Assembly (NCBI RefSeq): GCF_030848505.1
Contig: NZ_JAVDDU010000011.1
Coordinates: forward strand, 1-64,000
From: Marinimicrobium hydrolyticum
Lineage (GTDB): Bacteria; Pseudomonadota; Gammaproteobacteria; Pseudomonadales; Cellvibrionaceae
Length of the DNA stretch: 64,000 nucleotides
Direction: 5' to 3'
In this document: positions 40,233 to 49,644 of the stretch, in pieces
Numbering within the stretch: the first letter of the stretch is position 1
How the letters are laid out: each line of letters opens with the position of its first letter
Translations under genes and position numbers: made by a program
The notes under the pieces: model-generated
What the model was told of the DNA's origin: nothing
The model's input: only the letters and a program-made list of their open reading frames with translations
The model's database searches: none

Positions 40233-40261
40233 TTGAGGGGCCGCCCTATTTACCCTACTAT
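40233..40261 (+). promoter_or_regulatory. Candidate promoter of the Mrp-like operon
   Basis: TTGAGG (40233-40238), 17-base spacer, TACTAT (40256-40261); start of transcription near 40268, about 35 bases before the first gene. Confidence 0.5.
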
Positions 40262-40301
40262 CTATAGACTGTTTACGGCTAACGAGGCCAATGGAGTACC
40301 C

Positions 40302-40790
40302 GTGCATACAGTCCTGGCAAGCAAAACGCTTACGGATGGGTTTTACTGGCTGCTTACCTATACCATTATCTGGTGGCTGCTCACCGGAGGTACCGGTTGG
40401 GCTTTTGGCGCGTTATGGATACTTGGCGCCTGTGCAGTTTCCTTACTCCTTCGAGTGCGCCCAAAACGCTTCAAACTTTTACGTCTACCGGGTTTTCTGA
40501 CCTTCTTTAGCTACCAGCTGTGGGCTGGCGGCTGGGATGTGGCACGCCGCGCTCTACACCCTCGACGCCCCCTTAATCCAGGTTGGGTGAAATATTCCTT
40601 CCACTGCACGGACCCGCAGGAGCGTATTTTGTTATCCGCCATGGTAGGGCTGCTTCCCGGCACTCTGGCCTCTCAAGTCGATGGCGACCAGCTGTGCGTG
40701 CATACGCTGGATTTAAGCCAACCCTGGCATCACACAGTGGCGGACTTGGAGGTGCACCTAACTCGTCTACTGGGAACCGAAGACTCATGA
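40302..40790 (+). CDS. mrpE: Na+/H+ antiporter subunit E (MnhE/MrpE)
   Basis: Small membrane subunit of a multisubunit cation/proton antiporter. Two or three N-terminal hydrophobic helices, then a cytoplasmic domain with the MnhE pattern LPGFLTFFSYQLWAGGWDVARRAL and ILLSAMVGLLPGTLASQVDGD, close to the family consensus (ltPGT...D...l.VH.Ld). I choose GTG 40302 (162 aa) since GGAG lies five bases upstream. The frame is open to TTG 40233, which would overlap the promoter. First gene of an eight-gene run; its stop overlaps mrpF by four bases. Confidence 0.9.
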   Translation: MHTVLASKTLTDGFYWLLTYTIIWWLLTGGTGWAFGALWILGACAVSLLLRVRPKRFKLLRLPGFLTFFSYQLWAGGWDVARRALHPRRPLNPGWVKYSFHCTDPQERILLSAMVGLLPGTLASQVDGDQLCVHTLDLSQPWHHTVADLEVHLTRLLGTEDS

Positions 40791-41050
40791 TCGTACTGGC
40801 CGTCATCCTGCTGTGCACCGTGCTCGCGGGACTGTGGCGGGTGGTGTTGGGACCCACCCGAGTGGATCGGCTGCTCGCGATCCAGCTGTTTGGCACCACT
40901 GGCGCCGCGGTGCTTTTAATTGTGGCTCAGACTCTGGCGATACCCGCGTTGCGGGATGTCGCATTGGTCCTGGCTCTGCTGGCCGCAGTGGTGTCCGCTG
41001 CTCTAGTGCAATTTCTACGCAGGTCCACCCAAAAAGAGGACCCACGATGA
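40787..41050 (+). CDS. mrpF: Na+/H+ antiporter subunit F (MnhF/MrpF)
   Basis: Three-helix membrane protein of 87 aa. Diagnostic for MnhF is GLWRVVLGPTRVDRLLAIQLFG (R-V-x-GP-x-x-x-DR-x-x-A), followed by RDVALVLALLAAV. ATG 40787 overlaps the mrpE stop (ATGA), and its own stop overlaps mrpG the same way, so translation is coupled along the operon. In homologous Mrp complexes E, F and G form one end of the membrane arm near the sodium path. Confidence 0.92.
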   Translation: MIVLAVILLCTVLAGLWRVVLGPTRVDRLLAIQLFGTTGAAVLLIVAQTLAIPALRDVALVLALLAAVVSAALVQFLRRSTQKEDPR

Positions 41051-41364
41051 ACGAAGTACTCTACTGGCTAAGCTGGCCACCGTTGCTGGTTGGCACCTTC
41101 TTTTTTGTGGCTGGCACCGTGGGGATGCTGCGCTTCCCCGACGTCTACAGTCGGCTACACGCCCTGACCAAGGCGGACACCCTGGGCCTAGGGCTGATTG
41201 TTTTAGGGCTTTGTCTACGCGCCCAAACGTGGCAAGAAGTGCCCGTGATGATATTCATTTGGTTACTGATTGTGGCTTCCGGTGCCACCGCGTGCCAACT
41301 GTTGGCCCGTTATCAAAGAGAACAAGAGGCTGGCATAAAGGAGGAGCGTCGTGCCCAACCCTGA
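41047..41364 (+). CDS. mrpG: Na+/H+ antiporter subunit G (MnhG/MrpG)
   Basis: Three-helix subunit, 105 aa. The PhaG/MnhG pattern is clear: GTFFFVAGTVGMLRFPDVYSRLHALTKADTLGLGLIVLG, of which RFPDVYSRLHA-TK-DTLG is the core. The C-terminus is charged and cytoplasmic. ATG 41047 overlaps the mrpF stop. The next gene starts inside its last codons at GTG 41351. Confidence 0.93.
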   Translation: MNEVLYWLSWPPLLVGTFFFVAGTVGMLRFPDVYSRLHALTKADTLGLGLIVLGLCLRAQTWQEVPVMIFIWLLIVASGATACQLLARYQREQEAGIKEERRAQP

Positions 41365-42262
41365 ATGGCTGATGGACGGCACTCTGGGATTATTGCTGAT
41401 CGTGCTGGCCGTCGCGGTGCTTCACGCTCGCACGCCCTACGCCAGTATCGTACTGTTTATCACCTTCGGCTTATTGCTCGCCATCACCTGGGCACGCCTG
41501 GGAGCGCCCGATCTGGCGCTAGCGGAGGCGGCGATTGGCGCCGGGCTCACAGGCGCTTTGCTGCTCGGTGCTCTAGCCCACGCTCGCCCCGAAAGGCCTT
41601 CCACTAAACTCACGGCGCAAAAAATTCCCGCCACGGTTTTTGCTGCTTTGGTGCTCGCACTGCTACTAAAAGCCGTGTGGCCACTGGACGAAGGCCCCCT
41701 GCCATTGCCCGCTTTGGTCCAGGAGAATCTGCAGGATAGCGGCGTATCCCATCCCGTTACCGCCGTGCTTCTGAATTTCCGCGCCTGGGATACCTTACTG
41801 GAACTTCTTGTGGTGCTATTCGCACTGCTGGGGCTGCGCCAGCTGCGCCCCGCCTCCCTGGCCACTCCCGAGCCTTGGCCGCTGCTGCTGGCGTGGAGCC
41901 AAATTTTGGCGCCACTGGCCGTACTCATTGGCGGCTACCTATTGTGGCGCGGCACAGCGGCTCCTGGCGGGGCGTTCCAGGCGGGCGCCCTGCTCGCGGC
42001 TGGGGCTGTAGTTTTGCGTTTGAACGGACTATTGCCCTCACTGAGTTGGCACCAGTGGCCAATTAGGGTGCTGGTTCTGATGGGCGTGGCCCTGTTTTTA
42101 GGTGTGGCAGCCGCGACCGCTTGGCTGGGAGAGGGTTGGTTGGTTTATCCACGGGTGTGGAACACAACACTGATTGTCACTATCGAGGTGGCGGCTACGC
42201 TTTCCATCGCCGCCACTCTGGCACTTCTCGTGGCCGGCGGCCGGGAGGAGCTGCGCGAATGA
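41351..42262 (+). CDS. mrpB: Fused DUF4040 (MbhD-like) and MnhB-domain antiporter subunit
   Basis: Membrane subunit combining two modules. The N-terminal ~80 residues are the DUF4040/MbhD domain (ITWARLGAPDLALAEAAIGAGL), which in canonical Mrp is the C-terminal part of MrpA. After a linker, the C-terminal ~150 residues are the MnhB domain (ILAPLAVLIGGYLLWRGTAAPGGAFQAGALLA). 303 aa from GTG 41351 with GGAGG eight bases upstream. In this operon it seems to take over the MrpA tail, since no full-length MrpA is present. Stop overlaps mrpC by four bases. Confidence 0.85.
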   Translation: MPNPEWLMDGTLGLLLIVLAVAVLHARTPYASIVLFITFGLLLAITWARLGAPDLALAEAAIGAGLTGALLLGALAHARPERPSTKLTAQKIPATVFAALVLALLLKAVWPLDEGPLPLPALVQENLQDSGVSHPVTAVLLNFRAWDTLLELLVVLFALLGLRQLRPASLATPEPWPLLLAWSQILAPLAVLIGGYLLWRGTAAPGGAFQAGALLAAGAVVLRLNGLLPSLSWHQWPIRVLVLMGVALFLGVAAATAWLGEGWLVYPRVWNTTLIVTIEVAATLSIAATLALLVAGGREELRE

Positions 42263-42558
42263 GTCTAAGCCTGTTTTACCTTTGTGTTGGAACCACGCTC
42301 TGGCTGCTGGGGCTGCACGGCATGCTGCGTCAAAGTCATGTATTGCGCCGAATTATCGCCGTCAACATTATGGGTGGTGGTGTCTTTACCGTCATGGTAG
42401 CTCTGGCGATTCGCAGCGACCCGGTGGATCCGGTTCTGCAGGCACTGGTCGTCACTGGCTTGGTAGTAGCGGTGAGCGCCACCGCTTTTGCTCTGCGCCT
42501 GGCAAGCTCGGAAGCTGTGGCACAGCGTGAAAAGCAGCAAGAGGAGGCCCCTCGGTGA
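42259..42558 (+). CDS. mrpC: Na+/H+ antiporter subunit C (MnhC/NuoK-like)
   Basis: NuoK-homologous three-helix membrane protein, 99 aa. LLGLHGMLRQSHVLRRIIAVNIMGGGV and DPVLQALVVTGLVVAVSATAFAL match MnhC, in which the DP-x-x-QALVLT-IVI segment is highly conserved; here it reads LQALVVTGLVV. ATG 42259 overlaps the preceding stop. In complex I the NuoK counterpart carries membrane glutamates; here none is evident in the first two helices, as is usual for MrpC. Confidence 0.9.
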   Translation: MSLSLFYLCVGTTLWLLGLHGMLRQSHVLRRIIAVNIMGGGVFTVMVALAIRSDPVDPVLQALVVTGLVVAVSATAFALRLASSEAVAQREKQQEEAPR

Positions 42559-43988
42559 ATCTCGCGCTGCTAAGCATGTTGCTGCCTCTGGCCACTGCAT
42601 TGCTGTTGCTGGCGTTGCGCTCAAGAAGTGCGTTGCTGGTGATACTGAGCAGCGCTCTTGCCCTAGGTGCAGGTTCTGGCGCTCTGTTTCAGGTGGTGGA
42701 CGGGGGCAGCGAAACATTGCTTTTGGGTGGCTGGGACAGCCCATTGGCGATACGTTTTCATCTTACGCCGGTCACTGGGATGTTACTGGCGTTTACCGCA
42801 CTGATTCATTTCCTCGTGGCCATCTATGCCGCGCGCAGTCGTCATAGCCAAACTCGTCACAGCGACTACTGGCCACTGTCTTGCCTACTGCACGGTAGCC
42901 TGGCTGCGCTCTGGCTGTCCCGTGATTTATTCAATTGGTACGTCACGCTAGAACTGTTAGGGCTGATTTCGGTGGCACTGGTCGCCCTGGCAGGGCCGAA
43001 AGCTTACCGCGCCGCATTGCGCTACCTGCTCTTATCCTTAATGGCCTCGCTTTGCTATCTACTTGGAGTCGCCTTGCTGTATGGGCAGTATGGCGTGCTT
43101 GATGTAGGCCTGCTGGCGGAAGTTACGCAAGCGGATCACACCACCAGCGCCGCCCTGATGCTGATGACGCTGGGACTGATGCTTAAGGCCGCCCTCTGGC
43201 CCCTGCATCTTTGGTTGCCTCCCGCCCACGCGGGTGCACCCACAGCGGTGAGTGCTCTGCTCTCGGCGCTGGTAGTAAAAGGCCCCTTATTCATTTTGTG
43301 GTTGCTTTGGAGTCAAGCCGCACCTGCGGAAATTGGCCAACAGGCGGGATTCCTGATGGCAGTGGCCGGGGTTCTGGCCCTGCTCTCCGGTGGTTGGTCC
43401 GCGATGCGCACACCCTACATTAAGACCTTAGTGGCTTATTCCACTGTCGCTCAGTTAGGGTACGCCCTCATGGCGCTTGGCTTGTTGCTGTTCTGGCAAA
43501 TTCCGGAGCTGCATGTGGCTCTGTGGTTGTTCGTGCTCGCCCATGGCTTGGCCAAGTTATCCATGTTTCTGGCCGCCGGTGAAATGCAAGCCACTTTGGG
43601 AAGTCGACGCCTGACGTCATTGAAAGGCGCCACGCAAACCGTCCCGGTGGCCATGTTTGCCTTTGCGGTGGCCGGGGGCAGCTTGATCGGGCTTCCCCCG
43701 AGCGGTGGCTTTCTCGCCAAGTGGGTGCTGCTTCAGCCTCTGTTTCTGGAACCGAGCCATTGGCCCTGGGCCGTAGGCGTTTTATTGGGAACTTTGGCCA
43801 GCGCCGTTTACGTGTTTAGGGTGGTAAGCCTGGCGTTTGACCGAGCTGAGCCCATGGGCCCCAATTACCGCCCGGATCGATTCGCCCAGTGGTTAACGAT
43901 GTTGCCGGCACTTTTGGTGTGGGGAATGGCACTGGTCAGCGAGCCGCTGATTGAATGGTTGACCGGCGTGACGAGGGTGAGTGCATGA
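42555..43988 (+). CDS. mrpD1: Antiporter-like subunit 1 (MrpD/NuoM-N type)
   Basis: Polytopic membrane protein of 477 aa with the proton-conducting membrane transporter domain. The ion-path residues expected from NuoL/M/N and MrpD are present: E133 (WYVTLELLGL), K211 (LGLMLKAALWPLHLWLPPAH) and K242 (SALVVKGPLF). GTG 42555 overlaps the mrpC stop by four bases. First of three consecutive paralogous antiporter-like subunits. Confidence 0.88.
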   Translation: MNLALLSMLLPLATALLLLALRSRSALLVILSSALALGAGSGALFQVVDGGSETLLLGGWDSPLAIRFHLTPVTGMLLAFTALIHFLVAIYAARSRHSQTRHSDYWPLSCLLHGSLAALWLSRDLFNWYVTLELLGLISVALVALAGPKAYRAALRYLLLSLMASLCYLLGVALLYGQYGVLDVGLLAEVTQADHTTSAALMLMTLGLMLKAALWPLHLWLPPAHAGAPTAVSALLSALVVKGPLFILWLLWSQAAPAEIGQQAGFLMAVAGVLALLSGGWSAMRTPYIKTLVAYSTVAQLGYALMALGLLLFWQIPELHVALWLFVLAHGLAKLSMFLAAGEMQATLGSRRLTSLKGATQTVPVAMFAFAVAGGSLIGLPPSGGFLAKWVLLQPLFLEPSHWPWAVGVLLGTLASAVYVFRVVSLAFDRAEPMGPNYRPDRFAQWLTMLPALLVWGMALVSEPLIEWLTGVTRVSA

Positions 43989-45502
43989 ACCCGACTATTG
44001 CCGCCATGCTGCCGCCAGCGATTGTACTGACCTCGCTCATTCCCGGGCTGCTGATTTTTGCCCTGAGAGAAGATCAATATCGCCTGCGCACGCAGTTGAA
44101 CATGGCGGGTGTGTTTTTGAAACTCGCCCTGGTCGGGCTGATGCTTTACGGCGTCAACCAGGGCCTGAGCTTCCGCTTCGCGCTGCCCTTTTTGCCCGGC
44201 GGCGAGTTGATCCTGCACGCTGATGCCATGTCCCTACAATTTGTGGCGCTGTCGTCGGTGCTGTGGTTAGCCACCACAATTTACGCCATCGGTTACTTGG
44301 AAGGCGCTCCCTTGCGTTCCCGCTTCTTTGGCTATTTCAGCTTGTGTGTGAGCGCAACGGTAGGCCTGGCGTTGGCCGGCAACCTGGTCACCTTTCTGCT
44401 CTTCTATGAACTCCTGACACTGGCCACTTTTCCGCTGGTGGTGCACCGGGGCACGGCGGGCGCTATGCGCGCCGGGCGGATTTATTTGGCCTACACACTA
44501 GGTGGGGGCACCCTGCTACTGATGGGCGTGGCCTTGCTACACGCATTGACGGGCAGTCCGGAGTTTGTGCCCGGCGGTTATCTGGCGCCCCTGGTGGATA
44601 GTCATCGCGCCGGCCTGATACTGGCGTTTGTGCTGTTGGTTGCCGGGCTGGGCGTGAAAGCAGCGTTAATCCCGATGCACGGTTGGCTACCGACGGCCAT
44701 GGTGGCACCAGCGCCAGTCAGCGCCCTGCTGCACGCTGTGGCGGTGGTTAAGGCAGGCGCCTTTGGCATTATGCGTGTGGTGTATGACGTTTACGGTGTG
44801 GAGCCCATGCAGCTGCTGCAGCTAACTCAGCCATTACTCTGGTTGGCGGCCGCGACCATTATGTACGGCTCCATCAAAGCCTTGCAGCAGCAAGAACTTA
44901 AAAAGCGGCTGGCTTATTCAACCGTCAGCCAGGTGTCCTATATCACGCTCGGCGTCGCTTTGTTGGGGCCGGTGGCGGCTGTTGGAGGCATGGTGCATCT
45001 GGTCCACCAAGGGCTGATGAAAATCACCCTGTTCTTCTGCGCCGGGAATTTTGCCGAAACACTGCATGTGCACCGGATACGACAAATGAATGGCCTGGGC
45101 AAACGTATGCCTTTTACCATGGCTGCGTTCACCGTAGGCGCTTTGGGCATGATCGGCGTACCACCCATCGCCGGCTTTATCAGCAAGTGGTATCTGGGCT
45201 CAGGCGCACTGGAGGTCGACCAAGGGTGGGTCATTGTGATTCTGGTGATCGCGGGGCTACTTAACGCCGCCTATTTTTTACCCCTGGTGTATCGGGGCTG
45301 GTTTATGCGCGCACCCGAAACCTGGCCGGGAGACGCCAAACTTGGCGGCGGCATACCCGGGCGGCGAGAAACCCATTGGATGCTGCTGTGGCCCACTGTG
45401 TTCACGGCCGTCCTGTCTCTGCTGGCCGGCATCCTCGCCGGTACGGACCTTAGCCCCCTCGCCTGGGCGCAATTAATTGTGCAGCGGGAGTTTGGGTTGT
45501 GA
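43985..45502 (+). CDS. mrpD2: Antiporter-like subunit 2 (MrpD/NuoM-N type)
   Basis: Polytopic proton-conducting transporter domain, 505 aa. Key residues are E142 (LLFYELLTLA), K225 (GLGVKAALIPMHGWLP) and K256 (HAVAVVKAGAFG). The MHGWLPTAMVAPAPVSALLHAV region is the strongest family match, near NuoM/MrpD and hydrogenase MbhH subunits. ATG 43985 overlaps the previous stop; the longer open frame from 43955 is not needed. Second of three paralogues. Confidence 0.88.
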   Translation: MNPTIAAMLPPAIVLTSLIPGLLIFALREDQYRLRTQLNMAGVFLKLALVGLMLYGVNQGLSFRFALPFLPGGELILHADAMSLQFVALSSVLWLATTIYAIGYLEGAPLRSRFFGYFSLCVSATVGLALAGNLVTFLLFYELLTLATFPLVVHRGTAGAMRAGRIYLAYTLGGGTLLLMGVALLHALTGSPEFVPGGYLAPLVDSHRAGLILAFVLLVAGLGVKAALIPMHGWLPTAMVAPAPVSALLHAVAVVKAGAFGIMRVVYDVYGVEPMQLLQLTQPLLWLAAATIMYGSIKALQQQELKKRLAYSTVSQVSYITLGVALLGPVAAVGGMVHLVHQGLMKITLFFCAGNFAETLHVHRIRQMNGLGKRMPFTMAAFTVGALGMIGVPPIAGFISKWYLGSGALEVDQGWVIVILVIAGLLNAAYFLPLVYRGWFMRAPETWPGDAKLGGGIPGRRETHWMLLWPTVFTAVLSLLAGILAGTDLSPLAWAQLIVQREFGL

Positions 45503-47145
45503 CGGGTCTTTGGTGGTTAGGCATCCCGCTGGCTCCCTTGCTGGCCATGCCCCTGATGTGGCGCTGGCGAGACCGTGTCGCGCCCTGGTTATGGCTGGCC
45601 TGCGTGCCCGCCTTCCTAGCGGCTTTGTATCCGCCCGCCAGTCACAGCATGGCCTGGCTGTGGCCAGGGGCCACTTGGGGTGGAGACGATCTGGTGACCC
45701 GCGCCTTTTTGGGGTTTAGTGCCTTACTGTGGGCCTGTGCCAGCCTTTACGCCTCACAAAGTGAACGCACACACCCACGGCGGCGGCGCTTCTGGACTTT
45801 TTGGTTAATCACTCTTAGCGGCAACCTGCTGCTGATTATCGCTCAGGATGGTGTCAGCTTTTACGTGGGGTTCACGTTAATGAGCTTGTGCGCCTATGGC
45901 CTGGTTGTACACACCGGCGGAGCCGAGCCCCGTCAGGCGGGACGCCTGTATGTACAGCTGGCGGTGCTGGGTGAAATGTTTCTTTACGCCGCCCTGCTAG
46001 TGCGCATTCATGAAGCCGGTGGCGCCCTGGATTTTGAGGCATGGCAAACAGCGCCGCTAGGTATCCCCACAGCCATCCTTCTACTGTTGGGGTTTGGGAT
46101 AAAAGCGGGCTTTTGGCCACTGCATATCTGGCTGCCCCAAGCGCACCCCGCCGCTCCGGCAGCGGCCAGTGCGATTCTGTCTGGAGCTATGATCAAGGCC
46201 GGCATCTTAGGTCTGTGGCGTTTTATGCCGCAGGATGATCCGCTGCTGGCGGATTGGTCCCAATGGTTGTTTGCCATCGGCCTCTTCAGTGCTTTTTACG
46301 GCGTAGTGCTGGGCATATTGCAGACTCGGGCCAAGGCGGCCTTGGCGTATTCCTCGATCAGCCAAATCGGTTATCTGTTAATCATTCTGTCCCTGTCCTG
46401 GAATAATCCAGGGACTCATGAACTCTGGGTCGCCTTGTTGGCACTCTATGCGGTACACCACGGCCTGGCCAAAGGCGCACTGTTTATGGGTGCGGGGCTG
46501 GCGAGTCGCCATCGTTTATCTGTCGGCCAGTGGTTTTTGATGCTAATCCCTGCGCTGGCCATTGCCGGTTTGCCTTTAACCAGTGGCGGAGCGGTAAAAA
46601 CACTACTGAAAGGCAGTCTGACTGAAACGGCTCTGGGAAATTGGCTGCCCTTGATCACTTGGGGTTCTTTTGCTTCCGCATTGGTACTCGCGCGCGCGCT
46701 ATGGCTGATGAAGCAAAAACAGGGGGATCAAACAACAGTTTCCCGGCGACTGACTTACCCTTGGGCTTTTTTGTGTTGCGCCCCACTGCTTTTACCTTGG
46801 GTTTGGGATGAGATGCGCACAGCGATGCTGGCAAGCCTTACGTTGTATGACGCCTGGTCGATCATCTTGCCCTTGGTCGTGGCGGGCGCCTTAATTGCCA
46901 TAGCCTTGGGACAGGGTTGGACAATACCGCGCGCACTGGTACCGCTGCCCAACCCAGCGATTTACGCATCCTTATGGGTGAAGCGTCTACTGCAGTGGCG
47001 CGCCCGAGGCCTCATGGTGATTACCCTCGATAAGACGCAGTGGCGCCAGAGAGAACGCAAGTGGAATCGGTTTTGGCAGCAAGGCACGGTGGCCGTCAGT
47101 GCTTGGCTACTGTGCTTTCTGCTGTTATTGGGTTGGGTCTGGTAA
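45499..47145 (+). CDS. mrpD3: Antiporter-like subunit 3 (NuoL/MrpA-D type) lacking the TM5 glutamate
   Basis: 548-aa polytopic member of the same family. Lysines K203 (GFGIKAGFWPLHIWLPQAHP) and K234 (GAMIKAGILG) are kept, but the otherwise conserved membrane glutamate is threonine T126 (YVGFTLMSL, where relatives have F-E-L-M). After the transporter core there is a long C-terminal extension with extra hydrophobic helices and an amphipathic Arg/Lys-rich stretch, recalling the NuoL C-terminal arm. GTG 45499 overlaps the mrpD2 stop. Last gene of the operon. Confidence 0.83.
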   Translation: MTGLWWLGIPLAPLLAMPLMWRWRDRVAPWLWLACVPAFLAALYPPASHSMAWLWPGATWGGDDLVTRAFLGFSALLWACASLYASQSERTHPRRRRFWTFWLITLSGNLLLIIAQDGVSFYVGFTLMSLCAYGLVVHTGGAEPRQAGRLYVQLAVLGEMFLYAALLVRIHEAGGALDFEAWQTAPLGIPTAILLLLGFGIKAGFWPLHIWLPQAHPAAPAAASAILSGAMIKAGILGLWRFMPQDDPLLADWSQWLFAIGLFSAFYGVVLGILQTRAKAALAYSSISQIGYLLIILSLSWNNPGTHELWVALLALYAVHHGLAKGALFMGAGLASRHRLSVGQWFLMLIPALAIAGLPLTSGGAVKTLLKGSLTETALGNWLPLITWGSFASALVLARALWLMKQKQGDQTTVSRRLTYPWAFLCCAPLLLPWVWDEMRTAMLASLTLYDAWSIILPLVVAGALIAIALGQGWTIPRALVPLPNPAIYASLWVKRLLQWRARGLMVITLDKTQWRQRERKWNRFWQQGTVAVSAWLLCFLLLLGWVW

Positions 47146-47865: not shown

Positions 47866-48351
47866 TTACTCAATTCCCGAAGCGTCGCCATCAAGCTCAA
47901 GCAACGTCTTTACGGTCGCCATCGACAGGCGGCCGGAGCGGGTAAGTTTGTTGCCTCGACCATCAAAGAAAAGCGCGCGGGGCAGTTCGCCGCGCCAATC
48001 AGGATCAAGGGCATAACCCAGAACCGCGGGCACCTCATCCCCGTAGGCATATCTCGGCCCGTCACTTCTCAGCTCATCCAAAACCTCACCGTGCTCCTTA
48101 TGCAACGGCTCGACCGCCACTGAGATGACTTGCACCTGTTCGCGCGTTCGATTCAGTTCGCCCAACTCCTGTAAATAGTGTTTGCAATGTGGGCAGTCCA
48201 GAGACCAAAACGCCACAACCGTGGGAACAGTGTAGCTGTTCGGGTTACCAAGATGGCTGGCGGTGGCACGATCCAGGGTTTGAATCTCGGCGCTAGCGGC
48301 AGACGCCAAGACCATCAGGCTCAGCGCTACCCAGCCAAATAATTTTTTCAT
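47866..48351 (-). CDS. Periplasmic thioredoxin-like (TlpA-type) protein with CPHC
   Basis: 161 aa. Signal peptide of about 21 residues (ending ASA). A thioredoxin fold follows, with redox motif C53-P-H-C56 in FWSLDCPHCKHYL and a cis-proline region near ELPRALFFDGRG. The CPHC active site is DsbA-like and oxidising in character, but the overall length and sequence are TlpA/AhpC-like. Its start overlaps the stop of the upstream propeller lipoprotein gene (ATGA), so the two are one transcription and translation unit. Probably acts on the partner's cysteines. Confidence 0.82.
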   Translation of the reverse strand: MKKLFGWVALSLMVLASAASAEIQTLDRATASHLGNPNSYTVPTVVAFWSLDCPHCKHYLQELGELNRTREQVQVISVAVEPLHKEHGEVLDELRSDGPRYAYGDEVPAVLGYALDPDWRGELPRALFFDGRGNKLTRSGRLSMATVKTLLELDGDASGIE

Positions 48352-49565
48352 AGGGAGTAAACCTCAACGCCCGCCAGCTCTGTATGCCATACAACCAAAA
48401 GCTTGTCGCCCTGCTGGGCCAGGCGCGGTTGATCCACTCGGCCAGAGGTACTGCTTAAGCTCTGTACTGATTCAAAAGTCTTACCACCATCGGAAGACGT
48501 TTGGGTATACAGGTGAGTACGCTCACCGTCGAATTCGTTCCACACCAAGGTGACGAGGTCTCCGCGTACGGCCACATCGGCATGAGCCGCTCGCGAACCA
48601 CCTACCGACCGCTGGCCTTCGGGCTCCCCGCTTTGCAAGTGGCCATAAAAAACCTGAGGTTCGCCTTCGCGAACATTGAACCATACGGAGTGGCGCGTAC
48701 CGTCATCCGCAACAGCCAATCCGGGGCCGTGATGCGGGCAGGCGTCGATCGCCCAGCGGTCAAAGGTAGCGCGCTGAACCGGGCCGGGGACCTGCGCTGG
48801 ATCCAAGCGAAGCAGTGCGTGGTCGCGCTCATTGGGCTCAAACACATGCCGCCAAAGCACCAGGGCTGAGCCATCCACATCTTCTTCGAACGCAATACGA
48901 CAGCACTCGCAGGCGTGATCAGCCAGTTTGAATTCGGGCGCAAAGCTGCGGCCATGATCTGTGGACACGGCGGCGTATATACCCGCGCCCCTGTACTCTT
49001 CACCGGCCGCGTGAGCGATTTCCATATCGCGTTTGTCTATCCACACCAGCAAGACGTCCCCCGACTTGGTGACCAACAGAGAGTCGAATCGGTGCGTGAT
49101 TTCGCTCCGGTCCCGGTGGACGGTGAAGGGTTCATTAAACGTACGCCCGTCCCCAGAGCGGGCCAGGCGAATCTCACCAGTAAAGCGTTTGGCCAGAGGG
49201 TGGGTCCAACTCACCAGCAGTCCGCCGTCTTTGGCCAGAGCCACTTTAGGTCGGTTTTCACCATTGGCGGAGATGGCTTCCGGCTCAGCGTTGATACGCG
49301 TCGGCGCGTTCCAATTGGCGCCCAGATCTGGGCTCGAGTAGAGAGCCAGGTGTTCGCCCTCTCGGACCACAATGTGCAAGTTGCCGTCGGCGGCCAGTGC
49401 GGCACCGGTACCCAGTTGCGCGGGTTCCGCCTGAGTGACCAAGCCTGCGAGCGAGGAAGGGGGGGAGTGGGAGGTGCAAGCGAAAAGGCTGGTTAGCCCA
49501 AGCAGGATCAACCATAACTTTATTCCGCCACGGAAAAACTGACTCACGGCAACCACCTTTTTCAC
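48348..49565 (-). CDS. Sialidase-fold (BNR-repeat) lipoprotein with CECC cluster
   Basis: 405-aa exported protein. Lipoprotein signal with lipobox LFAC and C30. The rest is a six-bladed sialidase-type propeller with Asp-box-like repeats (SSPDLGANW, STDHGRSFAP, SSDGGKTFE). The sialidase active-site arginine triad is not evident, so catalytic sialidase activity is doubtful. Striking residues are C219-E-C221-C222 (HACECCRIAF) and D274-A-C276-P-H278-H279 (WAIDACPHHGPG), which could form a metal or thiol site. Operon with the CPHC thioredoxin-like gene downstream. Function unknown. Confidence 0.75.
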   Translation of the reverse strand: MKKVVAVSQFFRGGIKLWLILLGLTSLFACTSHSPPSSLAGLVTQAEPAQLGTGAALAADGNLHIVVREGEHLALYSSPDLGANWNAPTRINAEPEAISANGENRPKVALAKDGGLLVSWTHPLAKRFTGEIRLARSGDGRTFNEPFTVHRDRSEITHRFDSLLVTKSGDVLLVWIDKRDMEIAHAAGEEYRGAGIYAAVSTDHGRSFAPEFKLADHACECCRIAFEEDVDGSALVLWRHVFEPNERDHALLRLDPAQVPGPVQRATFDRWAIDACPHHGPGLAVADDGTRHSVWFNVREGEPQVFYGHLQSGEPEGQRSVGGSRAAHADVAVRGDLVTLVWNEFDGERTHLYTQTSSDGGKTFESVQSLSSTSGRVDQPRLAQQGDKLLVVWHTELAGVEVYSL

Positions 49566-49610
49566 GCGCCCGCGGATAATGACTTTGACAAGCTACTGTA
49601 AGTGAAATGC

Positions 49611-49633
49611 CCAGACCTGGCAATCAGGTCTGG
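49611..49633. terminator. Hairpin after the DegT-family aminotransferase gene
   Basis: Perfect 9-bp stem CCAGACCTG / CAGGTCTGG with a five-base loop, 11 bases past the minus-strand stop at 49645. T-content after it is modest (GCATTTC); likely transcript end of the aminotransferase operon. Confidence 0.55.
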
Positions 49634-49644
49634 GGGGATCGTTC

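Follow-up and report, generated by a model that had tools for sequence, protein, structure and literature searches.

A cysteine-containing propeller and its thioredoxin-like partner as a candidate periplasmic copper-capture module

The window, which is the whole 64,000-nucleotide stretch of DNA analysed, encodes a predicted seven-bladed propeller with four invariant cysteines and, in an overlapping gene, a thioredoxin-like partner. Judged from the two proteins and from the gene neighbourhoods of their relatives, the pair is rather likely to be a periplasmic copper-capture module, and it is probably a route of extracytoplasmic copper capture that has not been described before. The observations on which this reading is built are the anatomy of the gene pair, the invariant cysteines, the coupling to thioredoxin and receptor genes, the copper genes in the context and a fusion with copper-protein domains. 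Little is known about the passage of copper through the periplasm once a TonB-dependent receptor has imported it, and the family would be a second, testable route. The family, whose members combine four invariant cysteines with a thioredoxin of their own, has so far been labelled merely 'sialidase family protein'; it is widespread and occurs in ammonia oxidisers and relatives of methanotrophs (Nitrosomonas, Crenothrix, Methylococcaceae). The key enzymes of ammonia oxidisers and methanotrophs need copper.

The gene pair and the conservation of its cysteines

The four-base overlap (ATGA) of the two ORFs and the three cysteine motifs given in the preliminary description were all recovered from the translations. 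The motifs read C219-E-C-C-R and D274-A-C-P-H-H-G-P in the propeller and C53-P-H-C in the partner (Table 1). The propeller ORF begins with GTG, and a second possible GTG start lies six codons further in. A terminator-like hairpin between the upstream gene and the pair suggests that the pair has its own promoter. According to the window translations, Mrp-type antiporter genes lie on one side of the pair and sugar genes on the other, with neither a copper gene nor a receptor adjacent, and these neighbours yielded no clue to the function of the pair. The ORF run at 40233-47145 on the plus strand, which is convergent with the pair, reads like a complete Mrp/Mnh-type Na+/H+ antiporter operon.

Table 1. 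Positions of the gene pair, its motifs and the upstream hairpin in the window.
Feature	Positions	Strand	Remarks
Propeller gene	48348..49565	-	405 aa; exported; possible lipoprotein (C30)
Thioredoxin-like partner gene	47866..48351	-	161 aa; exported; translationally coupled via ATGA
C219-E-C-C motif of the propeller	48900..48911	-	loop between blades 3 and 4
C276-P-H-H motif of the propeller	48729..48740	-	loop between blades 4 and 5
CPHC redox motif of the partner (C53, C56)	48184..48195	-	from translation and alignment A3
Terminator-like hairpin 3' of the upstream sugar-aminotransferase-like gene	49610..49634	-	weak: 3 such sites against 1.9 expected by chance

Alignment of the propeller with its homologues (alignment A1) revealed that C219, C221, C222, C276, P277 and G280 are invariant in all 73 rows, down to 22% identity, and that H278, H279 and H158 are kept in 69, 64 and 66 rows, respectively. 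Given this invariance, the cysteine motifs are beyond chance, and the possibility that the cysteines are unconserved among orthologues is contradicted. C-x-C-C and C-P-H are present in all 84 ORFs from the 78 loci of the contig collection together with L001-L006; the 78 loci were retrieved by a peptide-pattern search with six peptides, and the set is biased because two of these contain the motifs. Among 58 related genomes, six have the propeller protein and all six keep the motifs. An order-wide profile search matched 49 of 293 genomes, many of them weakly, and CxCC and CP are kept in the best 30 loci without exception, the search profile itself containing the motifs. The plasmid records gave 63 matches, all below 60% identity; the four that were read all keep CxCC and CP, with VN in place of HH. 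The best 30 loci of the order sample split into subfamily A (C[EQV]CCR...CPH[HQK]G, 20 loci), to which the window protein belongs, and subfamily B (CDCC...GCPVNGP, 10 loci). Since H278 and H279 are replaced by V and N in subfamily B, the histidines cannot be universal ligands. The proposed lipoprotein character is plausible for the window protein, in which C30 follows a hydrophobic stretch, but lipidation is not conserved, as a simple pattern finds a lipobox-like site in only 8 of the 78 relatives. Locus L132 (G169:C100) carries two propeller copies in succession, of which the second is partial (302 aa), and no thioredoxin gene separates them.

The model of the partner (P0002; AF2, pLDDT 88.4) matches ResA, DsbF/DsbE and CcmG in Foldseek. 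In Pfam, P0002 gives thioredoxin-type matches below threshold, and none of the families reaches its cut-off. The partner combines a predicted thioredoxin fold, CxxC, a proline before the strand that faces the active site and an export signal, as do proteins of the ResA/TlpA/CcmG type. C53, C56, W119, P124 and G140 are invariant in alignment A3, the rows of which were selected for CxxC, and the family consensus is DPxWxGELPR. A3 holds 49 rows chosen from 74 downstream CxxC ORFs and the window protein, and leaves out the CusF-like ORFs after L015, L017, L022 and L023; these are counted in the 74, so a CxxC ORF downstream in 74 of 82 loci overstates the number of thioredoxin genes.

A gene of the partner family directly follows the propeller gene in 68 of the 77 testable loci of the contig collection and in 17 of 18 subfamily A loci of the order sample. 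The two genes are thus conserved together, and homologues with both cysteine clusters (73/73) and a linked thioredoxin gene (68/77), for which a search had been proposed, do exist. In four of the nine loci without such a gene in this position (L015, L017, L022 and L023), the propeller is longer. A domain scan resolves L015 into propeller, CusF and SCO1 in one protein, which has no thioredoxin partner, and the other three resemble it in length and cysteines. SCO1 is itself a copper protein of thioredoxin fold. Natural single-chain fusions of propeller and thioredoxin occur in L016, L101, L104 and L105. The conservation, the translational coupling and the fusions fit a role in which the partner would keep the propeller cysteine cluster reduced, in line with the control of its redox state surmised in the preliminary description.

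The regions downstream of the thioredoxin gene hold further recurrent genes. Translations of six loci (L058, L059, L060, L066, L067 and L069, from Nitrosomonas and one Burkholderiales MAG) read as fatty-acid oxidation genes in this position, 3-hydroxyacyl-CoA dehydrogenase-like in all six and also thiolase-like in most. In L072 and L075, three gene families follow in identical order, beginning with a secreted family that also lies near the receptor in L031 and L037.

Fold of the propeller and a candidate metal site

The model of the window propeller (P0001; AF2, pLDDT 90.1, pTM 0.86) has its best structural matches in the PLL/PHL lectins, CylK and BT3686-type propellers (VIA-align, Z about 28–31), with the PLL/PHL lectins on top (Z about 31); sialidases are also among the matches. 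Propellers of this kind are seven-bladed, and the DSSP strands of the model fall into seven blades. The sialidase fold of the preliminary description is therefore a loose term, and the six-bladed sialidase was replaced by a seven-bladed propeller, which fits the structural matches and the DSSP strands better. The Pfam family BNR_2 scores 27.9 on P0001 against a gathering cut-off of 31.4, and 32.4 on the relative L015. The sub-threshold BNR_2 score and the sialidase and lectin matches would suit a sialidase-like or carbohydrate-binding protein of an ordinary kind, without catalytic activity, in which the cysteines are incidental, but the cysteines are invariant at 22–24% identity and the genes stand in receptor, thioredoxin and copper contexts, which makes this reading very improbable.

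According to the model and DSSP, the CECC motif lies just before the inner strand 225–228 of blade 4, and the CPHH motif just before the inner strand 282–285 of blade 5. Model and alignment place other conserved residues in equivalent inter-blade loops, namely R105/P106, H158/F160, H328 and D378/P380. Positions conserved in at least 90% of the rows number 14 of 66 in the windows around those loops and 29 of 289 elsewhere, several of the 29 looking like Asp-box residues. Propeller loops of this position share one face near the axis, so that a single site formed by the CECC and CPHH loops is plausible. The model thus offers a candidate soft-metal site that would comprise C219, C221, C222 and C276 and probably H278/H279 and H158.

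The same cysteines might instead form a structural zinc site or disulfides, with the thioredoxin as a dedicated folding factor and the propeller binding another ligand, for example a copper chelator or a partner protein. Disulfide isomerisation, too, would be compatible with four invariant cysteines and a thiol-disulfide partner, and PLL-type propellers bind ligands. However, the vicinal cysteines of CxCC are unusual for a structural disulfide, conserved histidine and R/P residues occupy the equivalent loops, and L015 carries CusF and SCO1 in place of a thioredoxin partner, an arrangement not expected if the thioredoxin served for folding alone. We regard this explanation as unlikely.

Receptors, copper genes and an alternative partner in the gene neighbourhood

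A gene for a TonB-dependent receptor lies directly upstream of the propeller gene in 64 of the 71 loci with enough sequence, and in 9 of 11 subfamily A loci of the order sample. For the receptor and thioredoxin counts, 26 duplicate or short loci were dropped, L140-L147 were left out and the groups were formed without L004-L006; because the profiles were built partly from the same loci, these counts identify the neighbours and are no independent test of their identity. TonB, ExbB or ExbD is near in several loci. None of the examined receptors is recognised by TIGR01778, the profile of the known copper receptor (31.5 bits; cut-off 472), and the nearest profiles are haem and siderophore types (TonB-hemlactrns, hemin, siderophore), all below cut-off. 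The receptor of L082 (CAMCRC010000002.1), titled as a Klebsiella pneumoniae MAG, clusters in the tree with those of Pseudomonadales/Gammaproteobacteria MAGs of a different group, and the bin is likely mislabelled.

The window organism encodes a receptor of the kind typical of propeller operons (P0003) elsewhere in its genome. P0003 matches at 55% identity and 910 bits, whereas the next receptor reaches 27 bits, and it nests among the propeller-linked receptors in a FastTree tree. Since the propeller-linked receptors fall into several separate clades of the tree, the module is associated with more than one type of receptor. P0003 is divergent from a copper-translocating P-type ATPase 204 nt away (TIGR01511, 550.8 bits; cut-off 397). 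The ATPase has a double HMA domain, and the two genes share the 204-nt divergent promoter region (L148:7931-12931, own genome C29), where no CueR-like site was recognised by eye. CusF was sought in this genome and not found.

Copper genes appear beside the relatives of the pair. A leader ORF of the form CxxC...R[AG]PP immediately precedes the receptor gene in 19 of 60 operons, and the opposite strand of those loci has none. All ten leader-type ORFs tested, some of them beyond the 19, score above the DUF2946 cut-off; no such leader was seen for the window pair. DUF2946 is the CruR family, reported to regulate a receptor operon of Bordetella pertussis that copper represses (PMC9426467). A scan of 128 nearby proteins (A4) found CusF_Ec in four, SCO1 in two and ferritin-like proteins in two. 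A4 consists of 113 of the 144 nearest neighbours and 15 mostly upstream, operonic-looking ORFs added by choice, and its DUF2946 count is no unbiased frequency because four of the added ORFs were already known as a DUF2946 cluster.

Subfamily B is found among copper genes more directly. In one genome 3 nt separate its propeller gene from the preceding CusA gene of a CusC-CusB-CusA operon, the CusB of which has seven heavy-metal-binding stretches. On all four Roseobacteraceae plasmids viewed it lies in copper islands with a copper oxidase, a copper-binding protein, plastocyanin, CopC/CopD or a P-type ATPase. Three subfamily B loci (L123, L125 and L126) have no copper gene among the neighbours scanned, L127 includes a receptor, and two thioredoxin-like neighbours occur in L124. 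The proposed look for copper genes nearby therefore succeeded in relatives (CusF, SCO1, DUF2946, CusCBA, copper islands) but not beside the window pair. The CusF and SCO1 fusion, the DUF2946/CruR leaders, CusCBA, the copper islands and the CopA-type ATPase make copper the metal to which the gene context points.

The association of subfamily B with CusCBA and plasmid copper-resistance genes, and the copper-exporting type of the ATPase beside P0003, could also mean that the module serves to guard the cell against excess copper, or to detoxify it, and not to acquire copper. Against this, subfamily A is tied to import receptors (64 of 71 loci), and DUF2946 leaders accompany copper-repressed import genes in Bordetella (PMC9426467); we give detoxification little probability.

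Receptors of the P0003 type occur in 30 genomes of the two samples (the 58 relatives and the 293-genome order sample), and 15 of these have a subfamily A propeller. In 13 receptor genomes without the propeller, a PepSY_TM gene directly follows the receptor gene (13/13 by homology, five of them scanned and confirmed with Pfam). The remaining two have neither partner: G056 has TonB beside the receptor, and G018 is a fragment. The exclusivity of 15 against 13 concerns PepSY_TM adjacency to the receptor, not absence from whole genomes. No homologue of the PepSY_TM set was seen in any propeller locus, several of which have short flanks. Twelve genomes of the order sample, from seven genera, have both receptor and propeller, against an expected 20 x 17 / 293 = 1.2; the Fisher values ignore relatedness, and six of the 12 double-positive genomes belong to one genus. 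Eight of the 20 order-sample genomes with a subfamily A propeller are without a P0003-type receptor; L131, L135 and L136 have another receptor type beside the propeller, and L137 has none adjacent.

PepSY_TM proteins include ferrisiderophore reductases (PMC13038864). One of them, CrpH, has its gene together with that of the copper receptor CrtA and has been put forward as a reductase of copper in the periplasm (PMC13038864, PMC12914433). The exchange of PepSY_TM with the pair suggests that the pair may also supply the reducing step. It is conceivable, at somewhat less than even chance, that propeller and thioredoxin act in the periplasm as a reductase and receiver of copper that is driven by thiols. 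The pair would then replace the haem-based PepSY_TM reductase without being homologous to it, with the same receptor type served by either.

The ferrisiderophore reductases among the PepSY_TM proteins (PMC13038864), together with the TonB-hemlactrns, hemin and siderophore profiles of the receptor, also suit an iron or haem uptake system, in which the receptor would import a ferric siderophore or haem and the pair would release iron in the periplasm. These profiles are all below cut-off, however, iron genes beside the pair are few (the 2 ferritin-like proteins of 128), and the DUF2946 leaders, CusF, SCO1, CusCBA and the copper islands favour copper, so that we consider iron uptake quite unlikely. 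The two-protein envelope metal system of the preliminary description is thus well supported by the context, with copper indicated; haem iron, its other example, is weakly possible only, through the best but sub-threshold family of the receptor.

Proposed mechanism and comparison with known systems

In the copper-capture module that we propose, copper chelates would enter via the TonB-dependent receptor, which in the window organism is encoded elsewhere, beside the CopA-type copper ATPase. The soft-metal site on one face of the propeller would accept the copper, most likely as Cu(I), and the propeller thiols may be the reductant for chelated Cu(II). The partner would keep the propeller cysteines in the thiol state or return them to it, as TlpA does for ScoI (PMC6696091). 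Copper would then pass to downstream acceptors such as CusF- or Sco-type chaperones and cuproenzymes. Copper binding, the Cu(I) state, the reduction and the direction of transfer are steps that we infer from sequence and gene context.

A search of the open PMC literature found no paper on the propeller family, though this does not prove that there is none. Publications from 2026 deal with the Bordetella copper receptor and its PepSY_TM partner (PMC12914433, PMC13038864), and neither contains the word 'propeller'. Covalent haem c is unlikely, as neither P0001 nor P0002 contains the CxxCH attachment motif. The PLL/PHL lectins, the BT3686-type glycoside hydrolases and the CylK propeller domain share 8–14% identity with the propeller and are taken here as structural matches only. 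CusF and SCO1/SenC, which are fused to the propeller in L015 and lie nearby in a few loci, are different domains, i.e. partners rather than relatives.

TlpA of Bradyrhizobium is a periplasmic thioredoxin-fold reductant that acts on the cysteines of the copper protein ScoI (PMC6696091). The partner described here shares its thioredoxin fold class (Foldseek), but has its own consensus, DPxWxGELPR, and its supposed client is a seven-bladed CxCC/CPHH propeller instead of Sco or CoxB.

Membership of the CrtA receptor family was rejected for three receptors (L028, P0003 and L009) by sequence comparison with 9RVQ. This CrtA structure is absent from the matches of the L028 receptor (E up to 1e-5) and of P0003 (E up to 1e-3), and matches the L009 receptor only over residues 75–260 (51 bits). 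The closest known arrangement is the CruR-CrtA-CrpH operon of Bordetella pertussis, which consists of a DUF2946 leader, a copper TonB-dependent transporter and a PepSY_TM putative copper reductase. Both kinds of operon have a DUF2946-type leader (among the propeller operons, 19 of 60), a TonB-dependent receptor and a periplasm-facing accessory, with TonB/ExbBD in some cases (PMC12914433). In the propeller operons, in contrast, the accessory is the propeller-thioredoxin pair in place of PepSY_TM.
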